Shown piece by piece: positions 42,649 to 59,664 of a DNA stretch of 64,000 nucleotides. Position 1 is the stretch's first letter. Every line of letters starts with the position of its first letter. Location of the stretch: assembly GCF_024699985.1 (NCBI RefSeq), contig NZ_JAJONA010000001.1:3788501-3852500 (forward strand), in the 5' to 3' direction. The notes beneath the pieces are model-generated. The model was not told the DNA's origin and ran no database searches. It saw nothing but the letters and a program-made list of their open reading frames with translations. This DNA is from Phenylobacterium sp. J367. Its GTDB lineage: Bacteria > Pseudomonadota > Alphaproteobacteria > Caulobacterales > Caulobacteraceae. The position numbers and the translations under genes were made by a program.

Positions 42649-43878
42649 ATGGATTACAGAGACGCGTTCCGCACCGCCCTCCAAAGGGTCCACGCCGAAG
42701 GCCGTTACCGGGTCTTCGCCGACCTCAAGCGCCACCGCGGCGCCTTCCCGCGCGCCACCTGGACGCGCGAGGACGGCAGCCAGAGCGACGTCACGGTCTG
42801 GTGCTCCAACGACTACCTCGGCCAGGGCCAGAATGCCGTCGTGCTCGACGCGATGCACAAGGCGATCGAGGAGGCCGGCGCCGGCTCGGGCGGCACCCGC
42901 AACATCTCCGGCACGACCCACTACCATGTGGAGCTGGAGCACGAGCTGGCCGACCTGCACGGCAAGGAAGCCGCGCTGCTGTTCACCTCGGGCTACGTCT
43001 CGAACGAGGCCTCGCTCTCGACGCTCTACAAGATTCTGCCGGGCCTGATCGTCTTCTCGGACGAGCTGAACCACAATTCGATGATCAGCGGCATCCGCGC
43101 CGGCAAGCGCGAGCAGCGCCGCGTCTTCCGGCACAACGACCTGGTCCACCTCGAGGAACTGCTGGCCGAGGCGGATCCCGCCGCGCCGAAGCTGATCGCC
43201 TTCGAGAGCGTCTATTCCATGGACGGCGACATCGCCGACATCGCCGGCACCGTGGCGCTCGCCCGGAAGTACGGCGCCATGACCTATATCGACGAGGTCC
43301 ACGCGGTCGGCATGTACGGCCCCCGCGGCGCGGGCGTCGCCGAGCGCGACGGCCTGATGGCCGAGATCGACATCATCGAGGGCACGCTGGGCAAGGCGTT
43401 CGGCGTCATGGGCGGCTACATCGCCGCCGACGCGGTGATCGTCGACGCCATCCGCAGCTACGCCGACGGCTTCATTTTCACCACCTCGCTGCCCCCGGCC
43501 CTGGCCGCGGGCGCCGTGGCCTCGATCCGCTACCTCAAGGAGCACAACGAGGTCCGCGAGGCCCACCAGGAGCGCGCCGCGACCCTGAAGGCCCGTCTCT
43601 CCAAGGCCGGCCTGCCGGTGATGCCGAGCGTCAGCCACATCGTGCCCGTCCTGGTCGGCGACCCGGTCCACTGCAAGATGATCTCGGACATCCTGCTCGA
43701 AGACTTCGGCATCTACGTCCAGCCGATCAACTACCCGACCGTGCCCCGGGGCACCGAGCGCCTGCGCTTCACGCCGTCGCCGGCCCACACGGACGAGATG
43801 ATGGACAAGCTGGCCCAGGCCCTCGAGAGCCTCTGGGTCCACTGCAACATCAAGCGCGTCGGCGGCGTGGCGGCGTAA
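42649..43878 (+). CDS. hemA: 5-aminolevulinate synthase
   Basis: PLP enzyme of the C4 (Shemin) heme pathway, condensing glycine and succinyl-CoA. The 409-residue sequence has [65 protein letters not shown] and the PLP Lys in [15 protein letters not shown] (about 249). All active-site blocks are intact. The C-terminus ends at a strong terminator. The FixK-type box upstream suggests oxygen control. Genes for HemA and HemB are 4 kb apart and not in one operon. Confidence 0.97.
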
Positions 43879-44182: not shown

Positions 44183-44422
44183 TCAGATCGACCAGGCGAC
44201 CGTGCGGCAGCGGGCGGACCAGCCGCCCTCGAAGGTGGTCAGTTCCGACACCGCCACCTCGTGGACGGCGCCCTCGCTCTCGATGGTGAAAAGCTCGCCG
44301 AGCGCCGGCGGCAGGGGGCTCACCGACCAGATCACCACCTCGCCCAGAGTGGCGAGGTCCTCGTCGAGGACCTCGTAGCTCGTGGGACCGAAGGTGCGAA
44401 CGTCGGTGGCGGAACGCCTCAC
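44183..44422 (-). CDS. 79-residue hypothetical protein downstream of mucR
   Basis: From GTG 44422, which overlaps the mucR stop as GTGA, the product reads MRRSATDVRTFGPTSYEVLD..., with a beta-rich core (GEVVIWSVSPLPPALGELF, VHEVAVSELTTFEGGWSAR). The longer frame from 44527 runs through mucR coding sequence and is a shadow. No motif is recognised. Translational coupling implies a function related to the regulator or at least shared expression. Confidence 0.55.
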   Translation of the reverse strand: MRRSATDVRTFGPTSYEVLDEDLATLGEVVIWSVSPLPPALGELFTIESEGAVHEVAVSELTTFEGGWSARCRTVAWSI

Positions 44423-44856
44423 TTGCGTCTCCGGACCCCGCGGCCAAGGCCGATCTGCTTGGCGAAATCGGAGCGACGGGCGGCGTAAGCCGGCGCCACC
44501 ATCGGATAGTCCGGCTGCAGGCCCCACCGGCGACGGTAGTCGTCGGGGCTCATGTTGTAGCGTGAGCGCAGGTAGCGCTTCAGCATCTTGAGCCGCTTCC
44601 CGTCCTCCAGACAGACGATGTAGTCGTGCTGCACCGAACGGCCGATCGGAACGGCCGGCTTGGGCCTCTCCTCGGGCTGCGGCGGCGCCGTGGTGCCGCG
44701 GCTCAGGCCCTCGAGGGTCTGGTGCACCGACCGGATGATGTCCGGCACCGCCTCGGCGGCGACCGCGTTCCGGCTGACATAGGCCGAGACAATGCCTGCG
44801 CCGAGACGCAGCAATTCCTCGCCCGGACGGCTGTCGGGGTCGGGTCCGACGCTCAT
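44419..44856 (-). CDS. MucR/Ros-family transcriptional regulator lacking zinc ligands
   Basis: A 145-residue DNA-binding protein. The N-terminal half (RLGAGIVSAYVSRN...) is the oligomerisation region. The Ros/MucR domain starts near QHDYIVCLEDGK and ends DYPMVAPAYAARRSDFAKQIGLGRG, closely matching the family. Of the four ligand positions of Agrobacterium Ros (C-x2-C...H...H), only Cys82 remains; the others are Asp85, Tyr95 and Tyr100. Zinc-less family members are known in Mesorhizobium, so the fold may hold. The start ATG 44856 has an AGGGGGA site. In Caulobacter, MucR proteins repress cell-cycle genes. Confidence 0.88.
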   Translation of the reverse strand: MSVGPDPDSRPGEELLRLGAGIVSAYVSRNAVAAEAVPDIIRSVHQTLEGLSRGTTAPPQPEERPKPAVPIGRSVQHDYIVCLEDGKRLKMLKRYLRSRYNMSPDDYRRRWGLQPDYPMVAPAYAARRSDFAKQIGLGRGVRRRK

Positions 44857-45026: not shown

Positions 45027-46319
45027 TTGAACGTGCACGCTCCGCAAGCCGCCAACGATCTGTTCTTCACCCAAGGCGTGGAGGCCGGCGACCCCGAGAT
45101 CGCCGCCATCCTCGGCAAGGAGCTCGTGCGCCAGCAGGAGCAGATCGAGCTGATCGCGTCGGAGAACATCGTCTCCAAGGCGGTGCTGGACGCGCAGGGC
45201 TCGGTGCTCACCAACAAGTACGCCGAGGGCTACCCCGGCAAACGCTACTACGGCGGGTGCGAGGTGGTCGACGAGGCCGAGACCCTGGCCATCGAGCGGG
45301 CGAAGCGGCTGTTCGGCTGCGAGTACGTGAACGTCCAGCCGCACTCCGGCAGCCAGGCGAACCAGGCGGTGTTCATGGCCACCATGAAGCCCGGCGACAC
45401 ATTCATGGGGATGAACCTCGACCACGGCGGTCACCTGACGCACGGCAAGAGCGTCAACCAGTCGGGCAAGTGGTTCTCCCCCGTGGCCTACGGCGTGCGG
45501 ACCCAGGACCACCTGATCGACTACGACGAGGCCGCGGCCGTCGCCCTCGAGCACAGGCCGAAGGTGATCATCGCCGGCGGCTCGGCCTATTCGCGCCAGA
45601 TCGACTTCGCCCGCTTCCGCGAGATCGCCGACAGCGTGGAAGCGATCCTGATGTGCGATATCGCCCACTATGCGGGCCTGGTCGCCGCCGGGGTCTATCC
45701 GAACCCGTTCCCCCACGCCCACGTGGTCACCACCACCACGCACAAGACCCTGCGCGGCCCCCGCGGCGGCATGGTCATGACCAACGACAAGAAGCTCGCG
45801 AAGAAGATCGACAGCGCGGTCTTCCCGGGGCTCCAGGGCGGCCCGCTGATGCATGTGATCGCCGCCAAGGCCGTGGCCTTCGGCGAGGCCCTGCGGCCCG
45901 AGTTCAAGCTCTATGCCCGCCAGGTCATCGACAACGCCCGGGCGCTGGCCGACAGCCTGCAGCAGGCCGGGTTCAAGATCGTCTCCAACGGCACCGACAG
46001 CCACCTGATGCTGGTCGATCTCACGCCGAAGAAGGTCTCGGGCGCCGACGCCGAGATCGCGCTGGAGCGCGCCGGCATCACCACCAACAAGAACTCGATC
46101 CCCGGCGACCCCCTGCCGCCGATGCAGACCTCCGGCCTGCGCGTCGGCTCGCCGGCCGGCACCAGCCGCGGCTTCGGACCGGGCGAGTTCCGTCAGGTCG
46201 GCGCGTGGATCGGCGAGGTCCTGGATGGCCTCTCCCAGGGCGGCGACAACACGGCCGTCGAGCAGAAGGTGCGTTCGGAAGTCGTTGCCTTGACGCGCCG
46301 CTTCCCCATCTACTCCTAA
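45027..46319 (+). CDS. glyA: serine hydroxymethyltransferase
   Basis: PLP enzyme converting serine and tetrahydrofolate to glycine and methylene-THF. 430 residues: [69 protein letters not shown] and the PLP Lys in [14 protein letters not shown] (about 240). It begins with TTG 45027 ([14 protein letters not shown]); no ATG fits in frame near it, and AAAGG lies eight bases upstream. It is divergent from the mucR gene and followed by nrdR 31 bases downstream. Confidence 0.97.
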
Positions 46320-46350: not shown

Positions 46351-46815
46351 ATGCGCTGCCCGTTCTGCGGCCACGACGAGACCCAGGTGAAGGACAGCCG
46401 ACCGTCGGAAGACGGGGCGGCGATCCGCCGTCGCCGGCTGTGCCCGGAGTGCGCTGGCCGCTTCACGACGTTCGAGCGTGTCCAGCTTCGCGAGATCACC
46501 ATCATGAAGCGGTCGGGGCGGCGCACGCCCTTCGACCGCGACAAGCTGGCGCGTTCCATCGCCATCGCCATCCGCAAGCGGCCCATCGAGCCGGATCGGG
46601 TGGAGCGGATGATCTCCACCATCGTCCGCCAGCTCGAGAGCATGGGCGAGACGGAGCTGCCGTCCTCCACCATCGGCGAGCTGGTCATGAAGCAGCTCAA
46701 GCAGCTCGATGACGTGGCCTACGTCCGCTACGCCTCGGTCTATCGCGACTTCCGAGAGACCGGCGACTTCGCCAAGTTCCTCGGCGAGGAAGGCCTGAGC
46801 GAACAGGACGCCTAG
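46351..46815 (+). CDS. nrdR: transcriptional repressor NrdR
   Basis: Zinc-ribbon and ATP-cone repressor of ribonucleotide reductase genes. 154 residues: [18 protein letters not shown] and [16 protein letters not shown] (four zinc Cys), then the ATP-cone [20 protein letters not shown]-terminus [18 protein letters not shown]. It leads the riboflavin genes nrdR-ribD-ribE-ribH-nusB-thiL, a common alphaproteobacterial order. Confidence 0.97.
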
Positions 46816-58858: not shown

Positions 58859-58935
<77 letters not shown>

Positions 58936-58976: not shown

Positions 58977-59664
58977 ATGGCGGCAAACGCTAATTTCGCG
59001 CGGCGCGTTCCGGTTGCGCTCGCCGCCCTTCTCGGTGCGCCGACGATGGCCGCTGCCCAACCGCCCAAACCTGTACTCGTCGAGAAGCCCACAGCCGAGG
59101 ACGTCGCCAGGGTTTATCCGGTGGAAGCCCAGCGATCCGAGGTCGAGGGGCGCGCCGTTCTGAGGTGCTCGGTCCAGCCGGACGGCATGCTGCACAATTG
59201 CCGGGCGGACTCCGAAGACCCGCGCGACTTCGGCTTTGCCGAGGCCGTCCTCCAGCTGGCGCCGAAGTTCCGCTATGCGCCCCGCGCCGAGGGTTTCGAG
59301 ACCGTCATCCCGATCCGCTTCCAGTTGCCTCGCGTCATGCGCGAGGTGGCCTTCCCGGAAGCCGGGGCAGTGGGCGTCGCTCGGCCCTATCGGACCGTAC
59401 TACCCCGAGCGCGCCGAGCGCCTGCGGGTCGACGGCGAGGCGCGGATCGACTGCAGGGTCCTTGCCGACAATCGCCTCGATCAATGCCGTGCCGTGGCCG
59501 CCGGCCCGCCAGGCTGGGGGTTCGATGAAGCATCGATCCGGGCGGCGGCGGATGGCTGGATCGTCGCCGGGCCGGAACCGGCTGGTGTGAAGCCGCCTGC
59601 GGACGGGGTGTGGCGTTTCCGCGTCCTGTTCGAACAGAGCAAGCGGCGGAAGCGGTCCCGCTAA
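58977..59664 (+). CDS. exported protein with two TonB-C-like repeats (one frameshift)
   Basis: From ATG 58977: signal peptide ([20 protein letters not shown]), then two related domains. Repeat 1: [36 protein letters not shown]..., ending [20 protein letters not shown]. Repeat 2: [41 protein letters not shown]..., ending WRFRVLFEQ. The G.A.....V...G.L..C.V pattern is that of TonB C-terminal domains, but there is no N-terminal anchor or Pro-rich spanner. The frame breaks in 59361-59390; the best candidate is four G at 59364-59367 (one too many), giving 228 residues. Confidence 0.7.

Follow-up and report, generated by a model that had tools for sequence, protein, structure and literature searches.

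A MucR Paralogue with Tyrosine at the Third Ligand Position

What becomes of the zinc site of a Ros/MucR regulator when its third ligand position holds tyrosine instead of histidine, and in what setting is such a protein kept? The question is raised by a mucR paralogue located in the window, by which we mean the whole 64-kb stretch of DNA that was analysed (Table 1). Its product matches the Pfam ROS_MUCR profile with 159 bits (E 6.6e-47, cut-off 25.4) over profile positions 2-123 of 123, and its residues 63-140 align with Ros87 (PDB 2jsp) without any gap (phmmer, E 8.6e-25), so that the Cys, Cys, His and (His)His of Ros correspond to Cys82, Asp85, Tyr95 and (Arg99)Tyr100. The alignment bears out the ligand columns put forward in an initial annotation of the locus. 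Neither the third-position histidine of the classical Cys2His2 or CysAspHis2 prokaryotic zinc finger nor the one at the fourth position is found, their places being taken by Tyr95 and by Arg99-Tyr100, respectively. The replacement of His by Tyr corresponds to a single C-to-T change (CAY to TAY).

The reading that we favour, with a probability of about 72%, is that of a stress-controlled, glyA-linked MucR paralogue in which the third-ligand histidine has been replaced by tyrosine, which is maintained by purifying selection, and which would have little or no classical zinc coordination.

Table 1. Coordinates of the mucR locus and its ligand codons within the window.
Feature	Position	Strand	Basis
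mucR paralogue, 145 aa, PF05443 (stop codon included)	44419..44856	minus	open frame, ATG start
Cys82 codon TGT, first ligand position, retained	44611..44613	minus	Ros87 alignment
Asp85 codon GAC, second ligand position, as is usual in the family	44602..44604	minus	Ros87 alignment
Tyr95 codon TAC, third ligand position, where most proteins of the class-wide sample have His	44572..44574	minus	Ros87 alignment
Arg99 (CGC) and Tyr100 (TAC) codons, fourth ligand region	44557..44562	minus	Ros87 alignment
EcfG/SigT-type promoter motif GGAAC-N16-CGTT, located 66 nt ahead of the mucR start codon	44923..44947	minus	strict motif match
Small frame, 79 codons, GTG start, overlapping the mucR stop by GTGA	44183..44422	minus	open reading frame
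hemA-like gene, presumably for 5-aminolevulinate synthase; recurrent mucR neighbour	42649..43878	plus	
glyA, presumably for serine hydroxymethyltransferase; divergent neighbour marking the orthologue group	45027..46319	plus	
Presumed nrdR-like gene; recurrent mucR neighbour	46351..46815	plus	

Frequency of Each Ligand Residue

The frequency of each ligand residue was read from a class-wide sample. A PF05443 search of 144 genomes returned a match in 99, and 109 matches from 81 genomes were read; most came from the head of the listing, some low-scoring ones were added, and all were picked before their letters were known. The second position is Asp in 105 of these proteins, Cys in three and Asn in one; at position 95, 94 proteins have His and 15 have Tyr; and position 100, tallied from the ligand strings, is Tyr in 99, Phe in seven and His in three. 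The Ros-like Cys-Cys-His-His combination is present in three of the 109, and the Cys2His2 site of Ros, the textbook form, thus turns out to be rare in this sample. According to these tallies Cys-Asp-His-x-Tyr is the common form and Cys-Cys-His-His the exception, and Tyr95 is left as the sole unusual residue of the window protein.

The earlier suggestion that a Tyr/Tyr replacement is in itself distinctive is not supported by these counts, as Tyr100 and Asp85 belong to the large majority and only Tyr95 is uncommon. Likewise, the description of the protein as retaining one of four zinc ligands is correct relative to Ros only, since the accessible text of PMC11662661 describes the Asp of B. abortus MucR as a proven ligand, and a fourth-position Tyr is common.

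Tyr95 and the glyA-nrdR Neighbourhood

A search of the Caulobacteraceae with the window MucR gave a match in 148 of 149 genomes, and a step in the ranked matches (identity of at least 61%, E of at most 2.2e-53) delimits an orthologue set of 67 genomes, that of the window included. All 67 orthologues (L003-L069; 66 distinct proteins) are Cys-Asp-Tyr, followed by Tyr (58) or Phe (9) at position 100. The claim that the altered residues are not a sequencing artefact is thereby upheld, and the alignment of the orthologues shows the tyrosines at the third and fourth positions to be real and common to the clade instead of being restricted to one strain. Compared with seven same-genus orthologues, the window mucR has a dN/dS of 0.10-0.17, with a pN/pS of 0.05-0.12 in its DNA-binding half. 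In view of this purifying selection and of the presence of Cys-Asp-Tyr in every orthologue, a sequencing error, a pseudogene and a single-strain variant were all rejected. The motifs flanking the ligands, previously described as fully conserved, are conserved in most orthologues but not in all, as A123 and R139 vary among the 34 orthologues of set A1; in addition, L056 has VY where the window protein has AY.

In the remaining 82 of the 149 Caulobacteraceae genomes, some of which are incomplete, a match as close as a Tyr95 orthologue was not found, and this absence may reflect repeated loss. All listed genomes of one small-genome genus (coded g3) are without a close Tyr95 match. A protein ranked below the step (L070, 54% identity) is likewise Cys-Asp-Tyr, so the orthologue group may reach further. 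Two MucR genes were found in the genome of the window, the second of which (L001) is Cys-Asp-His-Lys-Tyr and therefore keeps the histidine.

The hemA, glyA and nrdR genes of the window, together with the small frame, were sought in 310 loci. It was found that glyA or nrdR adjoins 137 of 143 distinct Tyr95 proteins versus 48 of 131 distinct His95 proteins, in a sample that is enriched in Tyr95 because several of the searches used Tyr95 queries. Wherever the two are linked among the loci listed, glyA lies upstream of mucR on the opposite strand, and PF00464 adjoins mucR in three Caulobacter-group genomes. Tyr95 thus marks an orthologue group facing glyA-nrdR. Among the matches listed in the open-licence literature (titles and abstract openings), we found no paper that treats the glyA neighbourhood as a marker of a MucR orthologue group, nor one that connects MucR with Tyr at the third position. 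As for the small frame, in four loci that belong to the same genus or are named Phenylobacterium (L005, L006, L008 and L074) mucR is followed by a similar frame with 41-61% identity, and no Pfam or NCBIfam match was obtained up to an E of 1; it is possibly an operon partner of mucR, which would make it a partner in a stress operon.

Does the Site Hold Zinc?

Cys82 and Asp85 are invariant in all 143 distinct Tyr95 proteins, while at position 100 there are 128 with Tyr and 15 with Phe, and 30 have His at position 99. Phenylalanine rules out residue 100 as a ligand in those 15 proteins, and since their residue 99 is Arg, Lys, Asn or Gln, only two classical ligands are left in them, which argues against a classical zinc site. 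The frozen Cys82 and Asp85 point to some kept role, given that such invariance would not be expected if zinc were freely lost. L83, E84 and G86 are equally invariant, so this role need not be the binding of a metal; at the same time, the invariance of Cys82 and Asp85 is compatible with residual metal binding. Judging from these sequences, the glyA-linked Tyr95 MucR is probably devoid of classical zinc coordination, and Cys82, Asp85, Tyr95 and Arg99 may form a network of hydrogen bonds and salt bridges that replaces the metal.

The strongest competing explanation, which we consider unlikely, is that of an altered zinc site in which Cys82, Asp85 and Tyr100, with water or residue 99, would hold the metal, much as has been proposed in S. 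meliloti for MucR2 and MucR3. Such a site would agree with the retention of Cys82 and Asp85 throughout and of Tyr100 in 128 of the 143 proteins. The S. meliloti proteins resemble the window MucR in having Cys and Asp at the first two positions, with Lys/Tyr in their fourth-ligand region, and the accessible text of PMC13297338 reports that MucR2 binds zinc, that AlphaFold3 suggests its Tyr as the fourth ligand, and that a double mutant with Lys and Tyr changed to Ala is largely unfolded. However, according to the same text MucR2 and MucR3 keep the third-position His, and it is through this residue, shown by NMR to be a ligand in MucR2 and replaced by Tyr in the window protein, that MucR2 binds zinc. 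The 15 proteins with Phe100 and two classical ligands also speak against an altered site.

A somewhat less likely account holds that His95 and Tyr95 are a near-neutral toggle operated by single transitions, zinc having already become minor and the change having no effect of its own. The Tyr95 group extends to Rhodothalassium, Sneathiella and the Parvularculaceae, and the glyA-linked group has His95 members in Azospirillum and Magnetospirillum. With column 95 omitted, parsimony places 11 changes on a 208-row tree and nine on a 172-row tree, both built from few columns and with many open forks. Such counts, together with the single base required for the switch, would fit a toggle; well-supported branches alone, however, force just two changes on the larger tree and one on the smaller, so toggling may be overstated. 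Among the changes counted is that of L283, a His95 protein at a glyA/hemA locus that falls, with modest support (85), inside a Tyr95 group of another Caulobacterales family, and that possibly represents a return from Tyr to His. Against near-neutrality, position 95 is only ever Tyr (143) or His (131) in 274 distinct proteins, a third residue never being found, and Tyr95 is kept in 67 of 67 Caulobacteraceae orthologues. The co-variation of Tyr95 with a long polar residue at position 99 or with Arg127 was also considered; the raw counts are strong but inseparable from kinship, and as there are only two well-supported independent pairs, no co-variation is claimed.

Finally, that the paralogue is simply decaying, as the absence of the two histidines present in Ros could suggest, is scarcely credible in the face of strong purifying selection, an invariant core, a recurrent neighbourhood and a conserved promoter motif.

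Structure prediction with AlphaFold2 gave a low-confidence DNA-binding domain for the window MucR (block mean pLDDT of 46-80 for residues 61-110). The five models of a His95 orthologue, L102, have mean pLDDT values of 83, 80, 67, 65 and 65, and the L102 model resembles 2jsp (E 3e-4, TM 0.61 by target length). Because these five models are themselves split, the comparison of Tyr95 and His95 proteins was set aside as evidence on zinc. The N-terminal part of the window protein is predicted to form two helices, at residues 11-29 and 34-52, with a block mean pLDDT of 91-97 for residues 11-50. In the 143 distinct Tyr95 proteins, positions 37 and 40 are hydrophobic (with one Ala each) and position 41 is Ile, Leu or Val. 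We take these positions to be the counterparts of L36, L39 and I40 of Brucella MucR, having matched them by pattern to the Brucella sequence. In Brucella, the three residues are needed for oligomerization, according to the accessible text of PMC6250670. The accessible text of PMC13297338 places Thr in the oligomerization domain of both MucR2 and MucR3 of S. meliloti, a difference from the window protein.

A General Stress Promoter Motif Upstream of mucR

The available portion of PMC5869019 defines the SigT motif as GGAAC and CGTT separated by 15-17 nt, and the site preceding the window mucR, with its 16-nt spacer, falls within this EcfG/SigT definition. When the 300 nt upstream of each gene were scanned for strict GGAAC-N16/17-CGTT, the motif was found before 56 of the 67 Caulobacteraceae orthologues (L003-L069), where 0.25 would be expected. 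The distance to the assumed start is 66-84 nt in 40 of the 56 and 34-55 or 90-118 nt in the rest, and two of the 11 orthologues without the strict motif are one base off. The opposite strand of the same 67 upstream regions gave no strict match. Nor was one present upstream of 36 canonical paralogues, of which 33 belong to the Caulobacter-group genus and one to the genome of the window, or upstream of ten Ser-type paralogues, nearly all of these paralogue controls coming from the Caulobacter-group genus.

The motif also follows the classes defined above. It precedes 67 of 138 glyA-linked Tyr95 genes (0.26 expected) and one of six unlinked ones (0.01 expected), and it was detected upstream of none of the His95 genes, whether glyA-linked (0/49, 0.08 expected) or unlinked (0/82, 0.15 expected). 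Division of the 138 by family gives 67 of 79 in the Caulobacteraceae and none of 59 outside, which means that the stress link is not general to Tyr95 proteins.

In the whole genome of the window the strict motif has 50 sites and its reversed pattern 34, so that the excess is moderate. Nine of the 50 lie within about 7 kb of the nepR gene of the stress system (C1, about 897,700-906,500), a clustering that is as expected of a general stress locus. Another pair of sites, at 4,196,900-4,197,800, adjoins a weak second NepR match that is below the family cut-off. The 64-kb window itself has two strict matches where 0.67 are expected, a number that is not above chance, since 18 of 100 shuffles reach it; the case for a mucR promoter rests on the place of the motif and on its conservation. 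The second of these matches, GGAAC-N17-CGTT at 58986-59011 on the minus strand, lies about 50 nt upstream of tRNA-Pro(ggg) (58859-58935, minus strand) and may be a chance match.

As far as sequence comparison can tell, the window MucR represents a real variant, conserved in its orthologues, of a family already known, and in the Caulobacteraceae well-controlled sequence evidence links it to the general stress response. A single ligand position sets apart an orthologue group of MucR proteins that in the Caulobacteraceae is tied to that response.

Relation to Known Regulators and Possible Role

A counterpart of the window protein has probably been encountered before. The accessible text of PMC5869019 describes ten C. 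crescentus genes under strong SigT control, one of which encodes a ROS/MUCR factor, and reports that none of the ten deletions, that of this gene included, causes sensitivity to peroxide. Among the Caulobacter-group MucR paralogues examined, the motif is confined to the glyA-linked class, from which we infer that this stress-sigma-controlled factor is likely the glyA-linked Tyr95 orthologue. The accessible text says nothing of its ligand residues. A weaker guess equates the factor with CC_1356, annotated as 'Transcriptional regulator', which has a SigT motif and is SigT-dependent in carbon starvation and osmotic stress (PMC3073932, accessible text). The identification of the Tyr95 protein with C. 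crescentus MucR2 was dropped, as the tag CCNA_01367, taken for that of the latter, turned out to be cobT.

Other members of the family provide points of comparison. A. tumefaciens Ros (PDB 2jsp), although it aligns ungapped with residues 63-140, has a Cys2His2 zinc site. B. abortus MucR shares the Asp second ligand, but its CysAspHis2 site keeps both histidines and binds zinc with a Kd of about 12 nM (PMC11662661, accessible text). A likeness in terms of a lost zinc site is offered by Ml4 and Ml5 of M. loti, whose Ros/MucR domains are zinc-free, and fold and bind DNA without the metal, as reported in the accessible parts of PMC9779718, PMC11662661 and PMC5933289. Ml5 has Ser in place of the first Cys (PMC11662661, accessible text), whereas the window MucR keeps Cys and Asp and loses the histidines.

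The favoured reading can be spelled out as follows. In all close orthologues Tyr95 stands in place of the third-ligand His, in addition to Asp and Tyr at the second and fourth positions, both of them usual for the family. The general stress sigma factor would switch on the glyA-linked mucR, and in the DNA-binding domain of the product, which would still fold, classical zinc coordination would be slight or absent. The protein would presumably bind AT-rich DNA and oligomerize like other MucR proteins, and it could possibly mix with the Cys-Asp-His-Lys-Tyr MucR of the same genome, altering silencing during stress. A bolder version, which we consider quite improbable, is that under general stress an EcfG-made, zinc-independent MucR subunit joins ring-shaped MucR oligomers via the N-terminal helices that it shares with them and re-sets H-NS-like silencing, the chromatin state then following stress instead of zinc supply. 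If the protein is indeed zinc-free, its orthologues would constitute a natural series for the loss of a metal site with the fold kept, as well as a route linking stress signalling to H-NS-like silencing.

In a further MucR paralogue of Caulobacter-group genomes (L329-L338), the first zinc Cys is replaced by Ser (mostly as ISFEDGKPYKTLKRHLTTHG). These proteins, which are not among the 143 counted above, show that Cys82 is not invariant across the family. The accessible text of PMC4241560 reports that the C. crescentus MucR1 mutants R85C and Y97C fail to complement. The Ser-type protein of a related genome, L332, has Arg at residue 85 and Tyr at residue 97, in agreement with the numbering of these mutants, and the other two paralogue types do not fit it. 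Judged from this related genome, the cell-cycle repressor MucR1 may itself be without the first zinc ligand, like the zinc-free Ml5.
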